Shown here in pieces: positions 6,625 through 25,674 of a stretch of DNA of 26,624 bases. The stretch is taken from IMG/VR virus record IMGVR_UViG_3300042691_019116, positions 1 through 26,624 of that record; one strand, 5' to 3'. A model generated the notes under the pieces. That model saw only the letters and a program-made list of their open reading frames with translations. It did not search any database and had not been told where the DNA came from. Position numbers and translations under genes: made by a program. Numbering within the stretch: position 1 is the first letter of the stretch; each line of letters starts with the position of its first letter. Origin of the DNA: a virus.

Positions 6625-7416
6625 TTATGCGAATAGGTCTTCCAGTGAGGACTCTACTTCCTTCCGGCGGTCCTTGAGCTTGAGCTCAGCGTGACCCGTT
6701 GTCTCTCGATAGTACATGGTGCACAGGTCAGGGTATCGCTCGACCAGAACCTTCGCGCTCTCTTCGATGCGTTGCGTTGTCCTTGTTACTTGCATGCCTC
6801 CTGGCTCTTTGTAATAGTTCGACTTCACCGTGATGTAGTCAAGACGGCAAACCTTACCATCGGCGAGGTAGTATTTGATCGAACGCTCGAAGTCTTCCTT
6901 GTCGTCCAGCGTGACGTTGTATGCGTCGCCATGCTTGTTGATGCAACCCCACATACTTCCGATAACGTAGTAGAGACCAACAGCAACACGATCCTTCATG
7001 AAGAATGGATTAGAAGCTGCGTAGATGCCCCAGAGCCTGGCTCCTTCGCGCTCGCAGGCTTCAAAGCCTGCCCGAACAACTTCACCAAGATCGCCGATCT
7101 GACCGAGCGTTTTCTCGCCCATCCTACGGTTGATCTCAATTAAATCATCGTCTAGGTTCAGAATATAAGTGCCTTCTGGGTAGTAACTCTGAATGAAGTT
7201 GCGAATGGCACCCATGCCAGGAACACCAACGACGATGTTGTTGTATGGGGTGTCCTTAAGAACTTCTCGGTACTCAACTTCTTGCTCGGCATCACCAACA
7301 AAGATGGTAACGATATTTGGGTCGACATTCAACCTAGTCAATGTCGTCAGAGTTTTGTCCCTAACAGTCTTGGCTCTTTTGTAAGAAGGAATGGCAATAA
7401 CGTAGTCTTTCTTCAC
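6625..7416 (-). CDS. TET/JBP-associated-type glycosyltransferase (TAGT-like), GT-A fold
   Basis: A 263-residue protein starting at a GTG with GGAGATAATCT before it. Motifs: AIPSYKRAKT (8-17), VGVPGMGAIRNFI (63-75), ILNLDDDLIEI (85-95) with the metal-binding DDD (89-91), RLWGIYAASNPFF, GSMWGC, and a DDKEDFERSIKYYL segment. This block order is that of the phage glycosyltransferases linked to TET/JBP dioxygenases, thought to add sugars to oxidised pyrimidines in DNA. By the family's known context this phage may carry glycosylated DNA bases, but no dioxygenase or hydroxymethylase lies in the window. The repeat region 6401-6624 begins right after its stop. Another GT-A substrate cannot be excluded. 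Confidence 0.75.
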   Translation of the reverse strand: MKKDYVIAIPSYKRAKTVRDKTLTTLTRLNVDPNIVTIFVGDAEQEVEYREVLKDTPYNNIVVGVPGMGAIRNFIQSYYPEGTYILNLDDDLIEINRRMGEKTLGQIGDLGEVVRAGFEACEREGARLWGIYAASNPFFMKDRVAVGLYYVIGSMWGCINKHGDAYNVTLDDKEDFERSIKYYLADGKVCRLDYITVKSNYYKEPGGMQVTRTTQRIEESAKVLVERYPDLCTMYYRETTGHAELKLKDRRKEVESSLEDLFA

Positions 7417-16299: not shown

Positions 16300-17235
16300 T
16301 TATCTCCTATTTATTTGCATTTCGTTTTCTTTATACCATCGAACTGTTTTTGCCAATCCATCAGCAAGAGAGTTCTTCGGTTCCCATCCCATAGATCTTA
16401 TCTTCGAGAAATCTAGTGGTCGTTTTGGAGTTCCGTTTGGTTTGGAAGTGTCCCACTCTATCGTACCTTCAAATCCCACAGCATCAGCAATCAATCTTGA
16501 AAGCTCTCTTATGGAAACTTCATCGCCAGTGCCAGCATTTACTATCTCTCCTTTGCGAAGGTCGCTATTCATAAGAAAGATACATGCATCTGCCATATCA
16601 TCCGAGAACATAAACTCGCGCATGGAACAACCATTTCCCCACAACGTCACTTTCTCTGGATTCTTGATGAACTTTTCGATCATTGCCGGAATCACGTGTC
16701 CATTCTCTGGATGAAAGTTATCATTCGGTCCATATAGATTAGCGGGCATGATCGTCAGAGTCTTCATTCCATATTGTTTGGAGTATGCTTGGCACATTTT
16801 GATGCCAGCTATCTTAGCAACAGCATATGCTTCATTGGTCGGCTCAAGAAGCCCATCAAGAAGAGAACTTTCTCTTACTGGGAATGGCGCATACTTTGGA
16901 TAAACACAAACTGATCCGAGAAACAGAAACTTCTTAACGCCAAACAGAAACGAAGAATGAATCATATTATTTTGAATTGTTAAGTTATCATAGATAAACT
17001 CCGCAGAGTATATATCGTTTGCTCGAATTCCTCCAACCTTGGCTGCAGAATCGAAAACGTATTCCGGTCTTTCTTGATGAAAGAATTCCTGAACTTCTTT
17101 CGTGTTGCGAAGATCCAGTTCTTCTCTGCCGCGAGTTACTATGTTACAATAACCCAGAGAGTTCAGCTGACGAACTATAGCAGAGCCAACAAGCCCTCTA
17201 TGTCCAGCAACGAATATCTTAGAATCTTTTTTCAT
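16300..17235 (-). CDS. fcl: GDP-L-fucose synthase
   Basis: Epimerase-reductase of the SDR family that turns GDP-4-keto-6-deoxy-D-mannose into GDP-L-fucose. Nucleotide site GHRGLVG (11-17); catalytic Ser108 in GSVCVYPK, Tyr137 and Lys141 in YAVAK, plus Cys110 and His180 (in [10 protein letters not shown]), the residues used for epimerisation in the E. coli enzyme. 311 residues, normal length. Start chosen at MKKDSK; a TTG six codons upstream lies in the preceding gene. It overlaps gmd by 17 bases, so the two pathway enzymes are made together in the pathway order. Confidence 0.92.
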
Positions 17236-18226
17236 GATCACACATCTCCGCAACTAGATCAGAAAAGCAATATTGAGGAACCCAACCAAGTTGATTTCTC
17301 GCCTTAGTGGAATCTCCTAGAAGGCTTTCCACTTCTGCTGGTCTAAAATACTTAGGGTCTATTCGAATCACAGTTTTCCCAGTGTTTTTGTCAATACCAA
17401 CTTCATCAACACCAGATCCTTGCCACTCAATAACCATGTTAAAATATGGAGCAGCTGCTTGTACGAACTGCCGCACAGAATATTGCTCGCCTGTTGCAAT
17501 CACATAGTCTTCAGGATTGTCTTGCTGTAACATCAACCACATGGCTTGAACAAAATCCTTAGCGTGCCCCCAATCTCTTTTTGCATCAAGATTACCAAGA
17601 TACAAACACTTCTGCCTTCCTCTTGAAATTAGATTAAGAGCCATAGTTATCTTTCGTGTGACGAACGTTTCACCACGACGAGGCGACTCATGATTGAAGA
17701 GAATACCAGTACAAGCAAACATGTTGTATGATTCTCGATAGTTCTTGGTAATCCAATATCCATAAACCTTAGCAACACCATAAGGCGAGCGAGGATAGAA
17801 TGGTGTGGTTTCTTTTTGTGGAACTTCTTGCACCAAACCAAACATCTCAGACGTTGATGCTTGGTAGATCTTCACCGAATCTTCCATACCCAACAATCGG
17901 ACTGCTTCAAGTACGCGAAGAGTGCCAACAGCATCGACCTGAGCCGTATATTCTGGTGTCTCGAACGAAACTTTTACGTGGCTTTGTGCGCCAAGATTAT
18001 AGATTTCATTTGGTCTGATTTTCTTGATAACAGCAACCAACCCGAGAGCATCAGTCAGATCGCCATAATGTAGATTTATTTTTTCGTAGATGTGGTCGAT
18101 TCGTTTGGTATTGATACTAGAAGATCTGCGAACTATGCCATGAACCTCATAACCTTTATCAAGAAGAAGCTCAGCAAGATAAGAACCATCTTGCCCAGTG
18201 ATACCTGTAATCAATGCAACTTTCAT
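17219..18226 (-). CDS. gmd: GDP-mannose 4,6-dehydratase
   Basis: 335-residue SDR enzyme, first step from GDP-D-mannose to GDP-L-fucose (also to GDP-rhamnose or GDP-perosamine). GITGQDG (8-14) binds NADP; catalytic Thr125 and Glu127 in ASTSEMFG, Tyr149 and Lys153 in SPYGVAK, with the spacing of the E. coli enzyme. [15 protein letters not shown] and [13 protein letters not shown] are typical of the family. GGAGGTATA before the ATG. Paired with fcl immediately downstream, so GDP-fucose is the expected product. Confidence 0.95.
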
Positions 18227-18236
18227 TATACCTCCA

Positions 18237-18779
18237 TTATTTTCCGAAATCAGGAAACTCTACCAATATTGTGCTTTTTTTATCTTGTCTGTAGTAAGCA
18301 TACTTATAGCTTGACAGAATGTCCTCTGGGGAATTGAGCTCAATAACATCGACAGTTTTAAACATGCTTCTAAAGGCTTGAGAGAAATTGCCTTTATGTT
18401 GATCTTGGGGGTCAACGGGCATTTCTGATCCAACAGCAACACGAATGATAACTTTAGGATTATATTCCCCAACGCTCATCAAAGGTAATTTATCTAGGTG
18501 ATTTACCAATTGATCTGTAGCGCAGATAAGAAAATTCCATCTTGGGAAAATAGAGATTGGGACGGTGCCAGCCAAAGCCAGTCCAATGGAATACCCAACT
18601 TGGAAGTTTTCTGCAATTGGAAATTCTATTTTCAATTCTTCGGGAACTTCAGTTAATGAATTAAACATACCAGTTCCAGAATATTTTACAGCTTGCCCCA
18701 AGAATACAGTATTATTCTGTTTCGACAACCAAGTCATAGCAGCCGACAATTGGTTATTATATATTTGATTTGGGCTCAT
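18237..18779 (-). CDS. ThDP-dependent enzyme, E1-beta-like (pyrimidine-domain) subunit
   Basis: 180 residues equal to only the first domain of E1-beta subunits, which are normally about 325 residues; the C-terminal transketolase domain is missing. Key block [21 protein letters not shown] has the Glu (57) that activates thiamine diphosphate, followed by a [11 protein letters not shown] segment and the RVAVGSEM region. Start at [10 protein letters not shown] (an upstream TTG is possible). Its partner, the E1-alpha-like subunit, is the gene just before it. The pair would form the two active-site halves of a compact ThDP enzyme. Chemistry unproven; see findings. Confidence 0.75.
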
Positions 18780-18780
18780 A

Positions 18781-19407
18781 TTAAAATTCAACTCTTACTC
18801 CCGCGCCAGCGTGTGGATATTTTTGGTTTTTGTATTTGTAATATATCAGGTGATTCGATTCATACCAGTCTCCGTTAAATCCAGGCGGAAGATACCAATG
18901 TATGTTTTCTCCCCAAACCTGATCTGTAGGAGAAGTAACGCTAAGACCATTATCTTCTACAATAAAAGTTATTGGAAGATTAAACCCTATTGCATATTTG
19001 TACGCTTCATGGAAAGCGCCAGTTTCTGCGCTCATATCCCCCATCCAACACCAAACTCTAGAATCTGAATTCGTCCGCTTTATCGACCCAGCAATACCAG
19101 TTGCTATGCTTTGTATTCCGCCGACAATACTTGAACAAACAACTTTATGGTTTTTTAGGTTTATAACCATACTCTTCCCAGCAACAATCTTCTGAGTAAG
19201 AAGATCCTCAGAAACTCCCTTCAACAAACACTGGTAGTGGTTCCTCCAGGTGCAACAAACCCAATCTTTATCTACGTCTATTCTCTCGAATACTTTTTGA
19301 ATTTGATCTTCGTTGCCGTTATACAAGTGTATCGGCGCTCGTATCTGTTTGGAGTTAAACATTTCTGCTATTTTTTCTTCAAATTCAATCAATTGCGAAT
19401 TGTTCAT
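18781..19407 (-). CDS. ThDP-dependent enzyme, E1-alpha-like (pyrophosphate-domain) subunit
   Basis: 208 residues, shorter than E1-alpha proteins (about 330-400). It holds the ThDP diphosphate and magnesium motif WMGDMSAETGAFHEA to VEDNGLSV (Gly123-Asp124, then Asn153 after 30 residues), the R-N-H-Y...LLKG segment (55-64) and CSSIVGGIQSIATGIAG. It lacks much of the N-terminal arm. Own promoter (19425-19453) and GGAGAAATA before the ATG, so this unit (E1-alpha, E1-beta, gmd, fcl) can be transcribed separately from the glycosyltransferase genes upstream. Confidence 0.8.
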   Translation of the reverse strand: MNNSQLIEFEEKIAEMFNSKQIRAPIHLYNGNEDQIQKVFERIDVDKDWVCCTWRNHYQCLLKGVSEDLLTQKIVAGKSMVINLKNHKVVCSSIVGGIQSIATGIAGSIKRTNSDSRVWCWMGDMSAETGAFHEAYKYAIGFNLPITFIVEDNGLSVTSPTDQVWGENIHWYLPPGFNGDWYESNHLIYYKYKNQKYPHAGAGVRVEF

Positions 19408-20154: not shown

Positions 20155-20836
20155 TGTTAGATTTACTCCAAATATAAGAATAATCGCTTTGTTGAACTTC
20201 TTCGTGCAAGAATGATTCTCTCACTAATTTAGTTCGAACCATAACATAGAGAGGATTTGGGTGACTTATATCGTGACGTTGCCCTAGAGCTGGTGGAGGT
20301 ATTTGAACAGTCCAATTTGGATTGGTAGTGTCGCCTAAGAATACTTCCGTGTCGGAATAACCATTCACTTCAGAATACAGTGAAAAAAACAGCTCAGGAG
20401 AAAATTGATAAAATCCATGACCGCATTGATTATTTGCTGGCAAGACATGTAATATTGTCCCACCAACCTTACACAATTTAGAAACATTCTTTAGAGCTGT
20501 TGTTATTTCAAATATATGTTCTAGACATCCACCATCGATGATAGTGTCGAATTTTCTATTGATCGTATCGTCTATGGGTTTCCCCATATTCATAACAATA
20601 GAAGCTCCTTCATAATTGGAAAAATCTACGGAATCGACTGAACTTGATCCTAGAAATTTGGTGAGAACATCATCAGCGAATTCTGTTTGTTCGACCCCAG
20701 TCACATTGAGAATTGCTTCTACTATATGTTTTGGGGTGTGTAAACCTTGCCTCCCAATAGTCAACGTTTCTTTAAATTCACCATATTTGTCGTATGTATT
20801 TTTTAACAGCTTAAACATTTGAATATCGAATCCCAT
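20147..20836 (-). CDS. Class I SAM methyltransferase-like protein (229 aa)
   Basis: Middle region FDTIIDGGCLEHIFEITTAL (96-115) and VGGTILHVLPANNQCGHGFYQFSP (124-147) correspond to the post-I acidic strand and motif of FkbM/UbiE-type methyltransferases, with SPELFFSLYSEVNGY after it. A classical glycine-rich motif I (E/DxGxGxG) is not visible, so the cofactor site may be altered. Its ATG shares a base with the preceding stop (TAATG). In this cluster it could methylate a sugar. Activity is uncertain. Confidence 0.55.
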   Translation of the reverse strand: MGFDIQMFKLLKNTYDKYGEFKETLTIGRQGLHTPKHIVEAILNVTGVEQTEFADDVLTKFLGSSSVDSVDFSNYEGASIVMNMGKPIDDTINRKFDTIIDGGCLEHIFEITTALKNVSKLCKVGGTILHVLPANNQCGHGFYQFSPELFFSLYSEVNGYSDTEVFLGDTTNPNWTVQIPPPALGQRHDISHPNPLYVMVRTKLVRESFLHEEVQQSDYSYIWSKSNNE

Positions 20837-22173
20837 TATATTATCCTCATTTCTTTCGATTTCATAAATTCTTCCACTTTCGTTCCAATATAATCGATCT
20901 GTTCTTTGGTTATTACTGGGCTTGTGCCAAGGAAGAACGTATTAAGCATTGCATATGTTGCATTCGGAAAATTCTCTCTAGCATAATCAGCATCAGTCAA
21001 GTGATCATATGCAGGTTGCAACATAATGTTTCCGGCAAAGTATGGTCTCGTTTGAATTCGCCCATCCTCGAGATGTTGAATGATATCATCTCTTTTGAAT
21101 GGTGATCCTTTTCTAATAGTCAAGGGGAATGCAAACCAACTTGGGTCGCTTTTCTCCGTCGCTCTGGGAAGATGAAAGAATTGCTCATACTTCTCAAAGA
21201 TGGAAAACAGCTGCGCATAGTTTTCCTTTCTCCTTTCAGTTATGTAGTCCAGTTTCTTGAGCTGCTCAAGACCCATCGCTGCTTGCATCTCGATCGGCTT
21301 GAGGTTGTATCCGATCTCATCGTACACATATTTGTGATCGAAAATTTCATCTTTCAATGCAGGAATCCAGTTCGAGAATCTGGTCTTACATGTACCACAC
21401 TTGAGCGCATTGGCTTTCGGACCAGAGCAGTAACATCCTCTTCCCCATTCTCTAAAGCTCTTAACAATTGTTTCCTGTTCTTTGGTTTTGCAGGAAACGA
21501 TTCCACCCTCGCCCATAGTAACGTGATGTGCAGGATAGAAACTGCAAGAAGCAAATTCACCAAAACTGCCAAGAGGTTTACCGTCATAGGTTGACCCAAG
21601 AGCATCGCAACAATCTTCAAGTAGAATGAGATCGTGCTTCTCAACGATTCGCATTACTTCATCCATGTTTGGTGGGTTTCCCAGAACATGAGCGAACGTT
21701 ATGACTTTGACACCATTCTCTACAACTGCCTTCTCGATTTGAGAAACGTCTAGATTAAGAGTGTCCAACTCAATATCAACAAACACTGGCTCGAATCCAA
21801 GTTGTAGGGTTGGGTTTAGTGTCGTGGGGAATCCAGCGATAGGCATTAGAACTTTCGTTCCCTTGGGTAAGTTGTATCCGCGTTTGCTAGTCAATGCAGC
21901 GAGCATCAACAGATTGGCGCTGGATCCACTATTGACCAGAACCCCATATTCTTTATCCATTAGACGAGGAAACTTGCGCTCAAACTTTGCACCAAGATCT
22001 CCAAGAACTAACCAGCCACCAAGAATGGTTTTTATTGCTGCTTCATATTCGTCCGTTGAAAATACAGGACCAGCGTAATTAACCATGTCTCCTGGCTTCC
22101 AAGGAGCCTTGTTGATGATTTTAGCATCGACATATTTCTTAACAGCAGAAAGAAGTTCATCAAGTTCATTCAT
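20836..22173 (-). CDS. RfbH/DdhC-type sugar 3-dehydrase (PLP, probable 2Fe-2S)
   Basis: 445 residues of the DegT/DnrJ family. The usual PLP-binding Lys is replaced: SFYPAHHVTMGEGG has His216 at that place, the hallmark of 3-dehydrases such as E1 (DdhC, RfbH) and ColD rather than of aminotransferases. Cysteines Cys189, Cys247 and Cys249 keep the C-X57-C-X1-C spacing known for the 2Fe-2S site of E1, with Cys259 and Cys262 as candidate fourth ligand. Such enzymes remove the C3 hydroxyl from a 4-keto-6-deoxy nucleotide sugar on the way to 3,6-dideoxyhexoses. E1 needs a separate reductase (E3), not seen here. RfbF/RfbG are also absent. Confidence 0.85.
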   Translation of the reverse strand: MNELDELLSAVKKYVDAKIINKAPWKPGDMVNYAGPVFSTDEYEAAIKTILGGWLVLGDLGAKFERKFPRLMDKEYGVLVNSGSSANLLMLAALTSKRGYNLPKGTKVLMPIAGFPTTLNPTLQLGFEPVFVDIELDTLNLDVSQIEKAVVENGVKVITFAHVLGNPPNMDEVMRIVEKHDLILLEDCCDALGSTYDGKPLGSFGEFASCSFYPAHHVTMGEGGIVSCKTKEQETIVKSFREWGRGCYCSGPKANALKCGTCKTRFSNWIPALKDEIFDHKYVYDEIGYNLKPIEMQAAMGLEQLKKLDYITERRKENYAQLFSIFEKYEQFFHLPRATEKSDPSWFAFPLTIRKGSPFKRDDIIQHLEDGRIQTRPYFAGNIMLQPAYDHLTDADYARENFPNATYAMLNTFFLGTSPVITKEQIDYIGTKVEEFMKSKEMRII

Positions 22174-22185
22174 ACTATACCCACC

Positions 22186-23133
22186 TCACCAAATGAAATT
22201 TCGTTTGTAATAATCGACAATGGTTATAAGCTCTTCATCAAAATTTGCTTGGGTTTCCCAACCGAGAGATTTAAGTTTGCTGTCGTCAATGGAATATCGA
22301 ACGTCTTGACCAATTCTCGTAAAGTTGTAATCGATGTATCGGTCATACTCTTCGGAATGATTATATAGTTTTATTATTTTCTTAACGACGTTTGAGTTGC
22401 TGTCCTCATAATTTCCGGAGATATTATAAATTTCATTCACAACACCAGATTCTATTATTTTGATTATAGCCCGAGCAGTGTCTGATACGTGTAACCAAGT
22501 TCTTCTCGGAGAACCATTTTCGTGTAGTGGGATTTTTCTTTCTAGGGAAAGAAACTTGCAAGATTTGGCTATTAACTTCTCAACATATTGCCCAACACCA
22601 TAATTATTGGTCGGTCTGACAATTATGTACGGAAGGTTAAATGTTCTCGCCCAAGCACAAATCAACATATCTGCAGCTGCTTTAGTTGCAGAATATGGAT
22701 TAGAAGGTTTCAGTAGATCCGTTTCTTTATGCGAACCTTCAACGATATCTCCATAGACTTCGTCAGTGCTGAAGTGCAAAAACACTGGCATTGTGTATTT
22801 GCTTTTCTGATGAATCAACTCTAATAGATGATGAACGCCATTGATGTTGCTGTTCAGGAATACTTGAGAACTGACGATTGAGTTGTCTACATGAGTTTCT
22901 GCAGCAGTATTGATAACGTAATCGCAATCATGAAGAAAGTCTAAATCGTTAATATCGGACCTTATGAACTTGAATGTATCATACTCCATCAAAACAGGAA
23001 GCAAATATTCATTTGCTGCATATGTCATACTATCTACTCCAATTACGCGCCAGCCCTCGCGAAGGCACGCTCTGGAAACATGATAGCCAATAAATCCCAG
23101 ACAACCAGTTACATAAACAACTTTTTTGCTCAT
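22186..23133 (-). CDS. NDP-glucose 4,6-dehydratase, RmlB-like
   Basis: 315-residue SDR enzyme. GCLGFIG (10-16) binds NAD, STDEVYG (122-128) supplies catalytic Thr-Asp-Glu, and YSATK (147-151) the Tyr and Lys; the RPTNNYGVGQYVEKLI block is typical of dTDP-glucose 4,6-dehydratases. The nucleotide (dTDP, CDP or UDP) cannot be read by eye. It would form the 4-keto-6-deoxyhexose that the 3-dehydrase downstream needs. Starts with ATGA overlapping the end of the SDR gene and GGAATATCT before the ATG. Confidence 0.85.
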   Translation of the reverse strand: MSKKVVYVTGCLGFIGYHVSRACLREGWRVIGVDSMTYAANEYLLPVLMEYDTFKFIRSDINDLDFLHDCDYVINTAAETHVDNSIVSSQVFLNSNINGVHHLLELIHQKSKYTMPVFLHFSTDEVYGDIVEGSHKETDLLKPSNPYSATKAAADMLICAWARTFNLPYIIVRPTNNYGVGQYVEKLIAKSCKFLSLERKIPLHENGSPRRTWLHVSDTARAIIKIIESGVVNEIYNISGNYEDSNSNVVKKIIKLYNHSEEYDRYIDYNFTRIGQDVRYSIDDSKLKSLGWETQANFDEELITIVDYYKRNFIW

Positions 23134-23924
23134 AGATATTCCTTCAATCCTTCACGTAAGCCTTTTATTTTTATTGGGAGTTGCGATAAAAGACTACCAT
23201 CGCCAGTGTAATCTAATCCATTAGAATCAAACTCTATCCTGGTAGTCAATTTATGTATTTCTTTGAACTGTTGTAATGTTGACATGAGGTCTAACTTTTC
23301 AATATACACGCAGTTCACATCTTTATATTCAATATCAGCAGTAAGTATATAATACTTCAGAACTGAATAAAAGTCGTCCAAGCTGAAAAAGTCGAATTTT
23401 TTGTTCTGCACTCTCACTTCTTCTTGGTAGAGCATTCTCTTCAAGATTCTAAATTCCGGCTCAGCCCAAGAAAAGCAACCAAAAAGGCGAAGAGTAAAAA
23501 AGTTGTTCTTTTCTAGACACATTCTCGATATTGTGTTTTTGCTGATACCATAGCTTGTTTTTGGGAACGAAGTTAGAATCTCGCTCTCTCTACACATTCG
23601 AATGTGATTTGATGTATCAAATTCGGCGCCAGAACCTATGTTTATGAACCTTCCGAATTTATCAGAATTGTTGAAGAAATTCATAAACAAGAAAATATTA
23701 TTACTGAGATCTTCTAGAGATACATCATTCACTCGTTTGGCACCAGCAGAAGCGCAATTTATTATAACATCAAACTGTTCTTGTTCTAACCAAGAAGATA
23801 TTGCGCGGAAATTCAACAAGTTATGAGTGTTTCTGTTAACTGCAGTTACATCGTGTTCTTTAATTAATCGTGAGCAAATTGAAGAACCGAGGAACCCAGA
23901 AGAACCCAATACTGCAACTTTCAC
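23130..23924 (-). CDS. Extended SDR, NAD-dependent sugar epimerase/reductase-like (264 aa)
   Basis: GSSGFLG (7-13) at the N-terminus, a later VIINCASAGA segment, Ser98 in INIGSGAEF, and Tyr125-Lys129 in YGISK. These are the marks of extended SDR sugar enzymes; likely a 4-keto-sugar reductase or epimerase. The start is uncertain: I take a GTG just after the preceding stop (TAA-AC-GTG); a TTG four codons upstream is possible. The C-terminal half is divergent. It sits between the RmlB-like gene and a glycosyltransferase-like gene. Confidence 0.7.
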   Translation of the reverse strand: MKVAVLGSSGFLGSSICSRLIKEHDVTAVNRNTHNLLNFRAISSWLEQEQFDVIINCASAGAKRVNDVSLEDLSNNIFLFMNFFNNSDKFGRFINIGSGAEFDTSNHIRMCRESEILTSFPKTSYGISKNTISRMCLEKNNFFTLRLFGCFSWAEPEFRILKRMLYQEEVRVQNKKFDFFSLDDFYSVLKYYILTADIEYKDVNCVYIEKLDLMSTLQQFKEIHKLTTRIEFDSNGLDYTGDGSLLSQLPIKIKGLREGLKEYL

Positions 23925-23926
23925 GT

Positions 23927-24829
23927 TTATCGCCAATATGCAAAACCAGTTTCAGAATCAATCATATGTTTCTTCTGCGGCTCATCTATTTGCATTGGCC
24001 AAATCCAATTCTCGTTGAACATTCGAGCGCAATCGGAATACCATGGTTGTACCCATCTATTTCCAACCACTCCGAAAAATAATTGAAGAGATCCCCCAAT
24101 TTGTATACCCACTTTTCCTCTGAGTTTCGCGTGTTCTGCATAGAATGGCGATTGTGTAGTAATTCCTGTCAGAAGAACGTCATAATCATATCCATCAATT
24201 ATATTTTGAGTTATCTCAACCATCTCCATAAAGTTGGAGCAATTGGGATATTGCCTATCGTCTAACTCTGGATGGTATGGCGTTCTAATTACATCAACCA
24301 ACTCGAATGGGGTAATTTTATTTTCGCGACCGCCCCAAACTGAGTGAATGCGTTCCCATTGATACTTTATGCTATTTGAGTGAGAAGAAACAACCAAAAC
24401 TTTTTTGCCGCGAAGCGATTCTGTCCAAGGAGTTTCTATTGTTCCCAATTTGGAATATCCCATTAGAAATCCTGGGTCCATCACATTGTAATCGAAATAC
24501 ATTTGTTTGTCTGGGAAATTGGACAAAAACTGCTTATCTGTTTTAAGTGAATTATTGATGTCAACAAACCCCAATATGTCACATTGCTTCATCACTTCGA
24601 ATGTTTTTGGCATAATTGTGGATAGATAATATTCGGATGTTGCCGGAACAACTCCAATATGTAACATTATCTTATCATTACAAAATTCAGCTGATGGGAT
24701 TGCATTGGTTTGATACAAACAATGCAAAACATATCCGCAAGTATTGTCAATACGAAGGCAGGAAAAAGGCTCTCCGCTCTGTATTTTGTTATACAGTAGT
24801 TTGTTAATTTCAAAGAAATCCGTATTCAT
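23927..24829 (-). CDS. Putative GT-D-like glycosyltransferase (300 aa)
   Basis: PFSCLRIDNTCGYVL near the N-terminus, VLVVSSHSNSIKYQWERIH in the middle, YDVLLTGITTQ and GKVGIQIGGSLQLFFGVVGNRW toward the C-terminus. This spacing and the GK.GI.IGG.LQ..FG..G.R block resemble GT-D-type (DUF1792) enzymes, which act on bacterial surface glycans. The usual acidic D-G-E after the first Arg (R26) is not obvious, so the assignment is tentative. ATGA overlap with the GT10 gene. Confidence 0.45.
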   Translation of the reverse strand: MNTDFFEINKLLYNKIQSGEPFSCLRIDNTCGYVLHCLYQTNAIPSAEFCNDKIMLHIGVVPATSEYYLSTIMPKTFEVMKQCDILGFVDINNSLKTDKQFLSNFPDKQMYFDYNVMDPGFLMGYSKLGTIETPWTESLRGKKVLVVSSHSNSIKYQWERIHSVWGGRENKITPFELVDVIRTPYHPELDDRQYPNCSNFMEMVEITQNIIDGYDYDVLLTGITTQSPFYAEHAKLRGKVGIQIGGSLQLFFGVVGNRWVQPWYSDCARMFNENWIWPMQIDEPQKKHMIDSETGFAYWR

Positions 24830-25674
24830 AGTTTAATCGCGCCCTTTAAGAAAGAATATAACGAATCCAGATTTGGTTTAATGTGAAACAATTCTTCCGA
24901 ACATATTTGTTGGAATTTTTGGAAATCGTTTTCCAGCTCAGCAATTTTCGACAATAATGCATGATTATTCATCTTAGTATAATTTATATAGCACTTCTCA
25001 TTGAAGTCTCTGGATGCGGAATCATCGCCGAAGTAGATTGGAACACAACCAGCAACTTTTGCCTCAAGAAGTTTCTCCGTCACATAACCTTCTGTTATCG
25101 AATTCTCGAAGCATATATTGTATCTGTAGTTTTCCATCAAGTCAACTTTACAGCTGCTGAAATAGTTGCCAAATACTTTACCATACCCATGCACTGGTCT
25201 ATATTCATTCAGCTTCTGAGCAACCTCGATTCTGTTTCTCACGGGGTTGCCGATTATAATAGAACAGAATTCCTTTCTATTCCAGACTGCCTCAGGATCC
25301 CACTTACGAAACAACCTTTCTACTGATATTCTGGCATGTGGGAAGTTAGGCTCGCCCCACCAGTTTATGTACATATACCAATGAGGCAATCGAAAGTTTC
25401 TTCCTCCATGCGTATCAAAATCATGAGAGAGCGAGAAGTCTGCAATATCCAACCTTGGTGGTTCGTTCTCTCCAGTATAGAAGATCTTGATTGCCTTGGT
25501 GTTTCTTGCAGCATAGATGCTATTGCCAAAAGAAGAGAAGAAGATAATATCTGCTTCTTGCGGTGTTGAGTTAAAGTTTATCTCTCTGTCGTTCAGAAGA
25601 TCTCTGAACATAAGATTAAACCAATTACAGTTGGGATCGAATCCGCCCCAGAAATCAAGATAACAGATATTCAT
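24826..25674 (-). CDS. GT10 alpha-fucosyltransferase
   Basis: 282 residues with the GT10 hallmarks: YTGEN (66-70) early, and the C-terminal signature YRYNICFENSITEGYVTEK (183-201) followed by VPIYFGDD. These match the alpha-1,3/1,4-fucosyltransferases of Helicobacter and eukaryotes, which use GDP-L-fucose. The donor is made by the gmd and fcl products in this window. The acceptor is unknown. It is coupled by ATGA to its neighbours, so it is part of one glycan operon. Confidence 0.9.
   Translation of the reverse strand: MNICYLDFWGGFDPNCNWFNLMFRDLLNDREINFNSTPQEADIIFFSSFGNSIYAARNTKAIKIFYTGENEPPRLDIADFSLSHDFDTHGGRNFRLPHWYMYINWWGEPNFPHARISVERLFRKWDPEAVWNRKEFCSIIIGNPVRNRIEVAQKLNEYRPVHGYGKVFGNYFSSCKVDLMENYRYNICFENSITEGYVTEKLLEAKVAGCVPIYFGDDSASRDFNEKCYINYTKMNNHALLSKIAELENDFQKFQQICSEELFHIKPNLDSLYSFLKGAIKL

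Follow-up and report, generated by a model that had tools for sequence, protein, structure and literature searches.

Two short E1-type subunits

The window analysed here is a linear viral record of 26,624 bases (IMG/VR record IMGVR_UViG_3300042691_019116). Its minus strand carries two adjacent genes, here called alpha and beta, that resemble shortened subunits of E1-type thiamine diphosphate (ThDP) enzymes and may take part in the synthesis of a branched-chain sugar:

18781..19407, minus strand: alpha, compact pyrophosphate (PP)-domain subunit, 208 amino acids (aa), with a Pfam E1_dh match
18237..18779, minus strand: beta, compact pyrimidine (PYR)-domain subunit, 180 aa, with matches to a pyruvate dehydrogenase (PDH) E1-beta profile and to Protein Data Bank (PDB) entries

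A single base separates the two genes and a ribosome-binding-like GGAG precedes alpha. The length of beta is counted from an ATG and becomes 184 aa if a TTG start is used. The initial annotation had taken alpha for the PP domain alone and beta for the PYR domain alone of an E1-type enzyme, and profile and PDB matches agree with this assignment. Alpha matched Pfam E1_dh well above the cut-off (E=3e-15; 56.4 bits against 22 bits), whereas beta reached Transket_pyr only under the Pfam cut-off (E=3e-4); beta did match the PDH-E1-beta model PRK09212 (1e-12). In the PDB, E1 alpha chains were retrieved for alpha and E1-beta chains for beta (5e-8). Apart from a TPP_enzyme_C match under the cut-off (E=0.04), the pair matched E1-type models only.

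Compared with E1, alpha ends shortly past the ENN-type motif, and in place of the E1-alpha C-terminal part it has a conserved tail of its own with the motif YPHAGAGxRVxF. Beta does not extend beyond the PYR domain and, as the initial annotation had stated, lacks the transketolase-C domain of E1-beta. Neither transketolase-C (PF02780) nor E2 (PF00198), whose absence beside the pair had also been pointed out, was found in 18 viral records, namely the window record and 17 related ones, which may be fragments. In E1, the transketolase-C domain has a role in subunit contacts and in E2 docking. Its loss together with the absence of E2 fits a non-oxidative ligase better than a dehydrogenase. The same observations bear on an auxiliary role in central metabolism, in which a shortened pyruvate dehydrogenase or transketolase would redirect host carbon during infection. 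The similarity to E1 and the annotation of related proteins of the cyanophages S-SM2 and P-TIM68 as transketolase central region speak for such a role, but it is very unlikely in view of the missing transketolase-C and E2, the absence of other features of full-length E1 or transketolase and the setting in an island of glycan genes.

A conserved family in phages and bacteria

Searches of viral contigs gave 11 loci with the alpha query and, with beta, the best 80 of 103 were taken; removal of near-copies left 41 viral loci of the split form, the window included. The cyanophage fusions L091 and L092 and a huge-phage outlier, L093, stand outside this set. Both genes are adjacent in nearly all viral loci, with 196-222 aa for alpha and 176-198 aa for beta. 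A scan of bacterial genomes, from which the best 80 of 135 relatives were kept, supplied 62 bacterial loci for the residue and neighbour counts. These relatives align with alpha over its full length at 45-53% identity and have a beta gene of about 178 aa next door. They come from Nitrospirota, Pseudomonadota, Verrucomicrobiota, Bacteroidota, Cyanobacteriota and others, at least ten phyla by the record labels; since many are metagenome-assembled genomes, individual taxonomic assignments may be in error. The window phage is therefore one of many carriers of the pair, whose family extends across phages and a wide range of bacterial phyla.

The ratio of non-synonymous to synonymous substitution rates (dN/dS), calculated wherever dS allowed an estimate, was 0.04-0.12, which indicates purifying selection. 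The initial annotation had considered frameshifted remnants of longer E1 genes. That both subunits are shorter than those of E1 would suit such degenerate, functionless pieces, an explanation that is barely credible and was rejected on account of the constant lengths in more than 100 phage and bacterial loci, the purifying selection and the conserved ligands. In a tree of 117 joined sequences, the viral RfbH-linked pairs form one set of 39 rows (support 100) and the fused forms a separate set (support 98), while two viral pairs linked to a ColD-type gene group with bacteria. The tree was built by a quick method and is rooted for display purposes only, and the placement of some long branches is uncertain.

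The cyanophages S-SM2 and P-TIM68 carry both halves in one protein of about 400 aa, and 57 viral loci with the fused form were retrieved with the S-SM2 protein as query. The PHROGs family phrog_34187, whose function is left blank, represents this form: alpha matches its positions 10-195 and beta 235-400, so that homology extends to both halves and their order is kept. It differs from the split pair in its single chain, its canonical GDG motif, its neighbours and its separate clade. Among the fused loci (L174-L230; for example L202:6991-8001), a Zn-alcohol dehydrogenase gene lies at position -1 in 20 of 21 loci and at -2 in the other, often with genes for a heptose-type kinase, nucleotidyltransferase and isomerase nearby. 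The fused cyanophage-type enzyme probably serves a different sugar pathway.

Active-site residues were surveyed in 126 sequences, of which 41 are viral split forms, 62 are bacterial and 23 are fused. No variation was seen in any of them at alpha H27, E33, R55, G123 or H199 or at beta E57 (126/126 for E57), and beta H128 is invariant wherever it is aligned; alpha H57 is a further notable residue beside H27, E33 and R55. The GD...N motif and the catalytic Glu57 named in the initial annotation are correctly placed: the motif corresponds to G123-D124...N153, and D124 and N153 of alpha as well as E57 and H128 of beta are invariant in all 41 viral split loci. N153 is Asn in every split form and Asp in 7 fused ones. 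D124 is Asp in all viral forms and Glu in 32 of 62 bacterial alphas (GEM for GDM; loci L094-L173), and the residue that follows is Met in split and Gly in fused forms. In an alignment with human PDH E1, D124 and N153 fall on the Mg-binding Asp and Asn, E57 on the catalytic Glu of the E1-beta TPISE motif and H128 on the His of the QH motif. A pseudo-E1 protein devoid of ThDP ligands, also considered at the outset, does not apply here. The probability that the pair is an active ThDP enzyme, whatever its reaction, is rated as high, above that of the specific mechanism proposed below.

For structure prediction, alpha and beta of the relative L054, whose beta is 60% identical to that of the window, were joined through the stop codon solely to be folded as one chain. 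The model reached a predicted local distance difference test score (pLDDT) of 88.8 and a predicted template modelling score (pTM) of 0.87. 1-Deoxy-D-xylulose 5-phosphate synthase (DXS) led throughout the 50 matches listed in a Foldseek comparison with the PDB (query TM-score, TMq, 0.58-0.74); since E1 subunits are separate PDB chains, a query made of one chain is biased towards DXS or transketolase. A model of a natural fusion (pTM 0.90) gave, among the matches listed, transketolases at TMq 0.57-0.68, and DXS aligned poorly (0.32-0.38). The sequences and the joined model support the prediction that alpha and beta form one DXS-like PP-PYR unit with one ThDP site and without transketolase-C. No match at E <= 0.001 was obtained in the viral structure library BFVD. 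Its weak matches include H6SUI2 (171 aa) and I7KLL3 (192 aa), which are transketolase-like and come from the Campylobacter phages IBB35 and CP21. These short proteins, which tblastn with a bacterial beta did not retrieve, are possibly another split minimal ThDP enzyme in phages.

Neighbouring genes and the proposed pathway

The following genes of the window bear on the function of the pair:

20836..22173, minus strand: RfbH-type pyridoxal phosphate/Fe-S sugar 3-dehydrase, 445 aa, core partner (NCBIfam RfbH)
22186..23133, minus strand: RmlB-like nucleoside diphosphate (NDP)-glucose 4,6-dehydratase of the short-chain dehydrogenase/reductase (SDR) type, 315 aa, core partner (PDB 2hun, 5e-69)
23130..23936, minus strand: SDR of about 265 aa (Epimerase PF01370, 3e-14), candidate branch ketoreductase
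17219..18226, minus strand: gmd, GDP-mannose 4,6-dehydratase (TIGR01472, 566 bits)
16300..17253, minus strand: fcl, GDP-L-fucose synthase-like neighbour
24826..25674, minus strand: GT10 fucosyltransferase (PF00852, 1.7e-14; FucT_N, 1.1e-13)

The gene order is SDR268-SDR315-RfbH-methyltransferase-like-unknown-alpha-beta-gmd-fcl. As described initially, the pair stands directly before gmd and fcl, and 1.43 kb separate the end of the RfbH-type gene from the start of alpha downstream of it. The RfbH-type protein exceeds the NCBIfam cut-off (467 against 423 bits) and matches PDB 3bcx and 3bb8 at E ~1e-109. In the segment CSFYPAHHVTMGEGG, His replaces the aminotransferase Lys, and the Cys-rich segment is kept; SFYPAHH and CYC...C are both shared with 3bcx.

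The vicinity of the short pair to rfbH recurs across the family. A 3-dehydratase occurs in 39 of the 41 viral split loci (RfbH-type in 37, ColD-type in two), and both loci without one, L065 and L078, are clipped by a contig end on at least one side. The other recurrent partners are the RmlB-like SDR of about 315 aa, with a homologue at 35% identity or more in 36 of 43 other loci, and the SDR of about 265 aa, whose homologues at the same threshold all lie at offset +2, the next gene after beta (12/12). In 22 loci RfbH is the gene immediately before alpha, in most cases overlapping it by 4 nt, and in 36 loci beta is immediately followed by an SDR. Among viral loci anchored on gmd, by comparison, RfbH was found in 3 of 80 and the pair in none (37/41 against 3/80, Fisher p=5e-23), while 11 of 79 loci anchored on RfbH contained the pair. 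The pair is nearly always accompanied by RfbH, whereas RfbH often occurs without the pair, an asymmetry that would follow from a function of the pair downstream of RfbH.

This context supports the ThDP ligase for a branched-chain, YerE-like sugar put forward in the initial annotation, although its partnership with gmd and fcl has to be abandoned. With gmd homologues in 10 and fcl homologues in 8 of 43 loci, and no pair in the gmd-anchored control, these genes were ruled out as pathway partners. They probably constitute a separate GDP-fucose route, the product of which is likely to feed the GT10 fucosyltransferase.

The bacterial loci have a ColD-type 3-dehydratase in 46 of 62 cases, with ColD and its homologues as best PDB matches, and also carry HddA/HddC-like, fcl-like and B12-radical-SAM genes. 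The occurrence of two 3-dehydratase types, RfbH and ColD, beside one enzyme suggests that the acceptor is a 4-keto-3-deoxy sugar.

The pair is proposed to be a ThDP carboligase that places a pyruvate-derived two-carbon unit on C4 of an NDP-4-keto-3,6-dideoxyhexose, with subsequent reduction, a reading to which a probability of roughly 0.6 is assigned. The RmlB-like SDR (22186-23133) would convert NDP-glucose to the 4-keto-6-deoxy sugar, from which the RfbH-type 3-dehydrase (20836-22173) would generate the NDP-4-keto-3,6-dideoxyhexose. Alpha and beta would decarboxylate an alpha-keto acid, for which pyruvate is the best candidate, and add the two-carbon unit to the presumed acceptor, supposedly at its C4 ketone, to give an acetyl branch. 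The SDR of about 265 aa (23130-23936) may reduce this branch to a hydroxyethyl group, and the resulting yersiniose-like sugar would be transferred to a glycan by phage glycosyltransferases. For the nucleotide-sugar precursor and for the electrons that RfbH needs, the phage would depend on its host. The two indications on the nucleotide differ, as the dehydratase is closest to dTDP-glucose enzymes and RfbH to CDP enzymes.

Several points weigh against this pathway. No nucleotidyltransferase (PF00483) was found in 16 of the 18 viral records, the window record among them, and no PF00175-type reductase for RfbH in any of the 18; supply by the host is assumed for this reason, and the records may be fragments. 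The partners of the fused form, a Zn-alcohol dehydrogenase and heptose-type genes, suggest that the family may serve several acceptors. About half of the bacterial relatives have Glu for the Mg-ligand Asp, and the split-form structure model is that of a joined relative rather than of the window pair.

The same chemistry and sugar pathway with another donor, such as hydroxypyruvate or a longer 2-oxo acid, or with ligation at C3, would yield a different branched sugar. The YerE-like ErwE takes 4-hydroxy-2-oxo acids and not pyruvate, and E1-like pairs of the alphaKADH2 group branch at C3 or C4 (PMC12247030); the different partner genes of the fused and bacterial forms point the same way. KbDH-alpha/beta, however, prefers pyruvate (PMC12247030), which is not specific proof, and this variant is regarded as rather unlikely. 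The pair could also act on something other than a sugar nucleotide, as an aldehyde-, acetoin- or acyl-forming 2-oxo-acid decarboxylase for another glycan modification or for host metabolism. A precedent is sulfopyruvate decarboxylase ComDE, a minimal two-subunit decarboxylase with PP and PYR domains. Moreover, acetoin:DCPIP oxidoreductases are E1-like (PMC12247030), and an acoA-like gene at 28% identity occurs in the record of an Acinetobacter phage. This role would leave the near-obligatory 3-dehydratase (39/41, two types) and the operon-like overlaps unexplained, and it is considered improbable.

Other genes were observed in these neighbourhoods. A B12-binding radical SAM protein of about 514 aa occurs in 35 of 62 bacterial neighbourhoods (e.g. 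L123:6443-7972), together with HddA- and HddC-like genes. DegT-family proteins at L013:12994-14172 and L063:11041-12186 do not fit the simple RfbH/ColD motif (SYFGHTISSIEGG and TYFGHQIQSVEGG, respectively). At 6625-7416 the window encodes a homologue of the TET-associated glycosyltransferase (TAGT; PF20691, 3e-12) with a phrog match to beta-glucosyl-HMC-alpha-glucosyltransferase, which suggests glycosylated DNA bases in the window phage.

Comparison with known sugar-branching enzymes

In the literature searched, branched-chain sugars have so far been tied to bacterial O-antigens and antibiotics, and no link between phages and such a pair was found. By 2015, two enzymatic ways of giving a sugar a two-carbon branch had been described, the E1-like pairs of the AviB1/AviB2 type and YerE (PMC4425429). 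A 2025 review assigns YerE-like enzymes to lipopolysaccharide and alphaKADH2 pairs to secondary metabolites, lists no viral enzyme, names viruses as a place where unexpected functions may turn up and points out the lack of a structure for any ketone-accepting alphaKADH2 (PMC12247030). If the proposal is true, phages gain a route to a branched sugar, and the smallest natural E1-type ThDP carboligase is defined, which would be useful for making tertiary alcohols. It would also correct names such as 'transketolase' and 'pyruvate dehydrogenase E1', which would be taken for central-carbon auxiliary genes in virome surveys. With two small proteins, the hypothesis is directly testable.

With pyruvate and 2-oxoisovalerate dehydrogenase E1 (alpha2beta2) the phage pair shares the PP and PYR domains, the Mg/ThDP ligands, the catalytic Glu and the His of the beta QH motif, and it differs by the absence of the E1-alpha C-terminal part, transketolase-C and E2. 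DXS resembles it in the fold-level PP and PYR arrangement (TMq up to 0.74) and likewise couples a two-carbon unit from pyruvate to a sugar phosphate, but it is a single chain of about 620 aa with a transketolase-C domain, at about 15% sequence identity. The analogy to YerE, the enzyme of yersiniose A in the Yersinia O-antigen, holds for the branching role and for the slot in the pathway, after 3-dehydration of CDP-4-keto-6-deoxyglucose by RfbH and before ketoreduction. YerE, however, is a single-chain ThDP flavoprotein of the acetolactate-synthase type (PMC4753412, PMC10338323), whereas the phage enzyme is E1-type, consists of two short chains and has no flavin domain.

A closer precedent than YerE is provided by the E1-like alphaKADH2 pairs AviB1/AviB2, Plm8/Plm9 (= Pau11/Pau12), EvdU5/EvdS3 and KbDH-alpha/beta. 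In antibiotic pathways, such pairs furnish deoxysugars with a two-carbon branch that stems from pyruvate (PMC12247030, PMC4802897, PMC4425429). Their alpha and beta subunits are encoded together in a deoxysugar pathway, and two-carbon branching of a keto-sugar has been proposed or shown for them (PMC12247030, PMC4425429, PMC4802897, PMC10338323). The phage pair shares the keto-deoxysugar gene set (a 3-dehydratase in 39/41 loci, plus SDRs). It does not share their size, as Pau11 has 325 and Pau12 345 aa (PMC4425429), so that the phage subunits (208 and 180 aa) are 117 and 165 aa shorter. The alphaKADH2 pairs are set in actinobacterial antibiotic clusters, whereas the short pair neighbours a 3-dehydratase within glycan islands of phages and bacteria. 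By analogy of the gene set, the phage pair may work like an alphaKADH2 pair. The chances are about even that the smallest E1-type ThDP enzymes, composed of a PP and a PYR domain in split or fused form and so far unassigned as a family, constitute in phages and many bacterial phyla a third class of sugar-branching carboligases next to YerE and the full-size alphaKADH2 pairs. In phages this class would act with RfbH to decorate a glycan of the host or of the phage itself with a branched 3,6-dideoxysugar.
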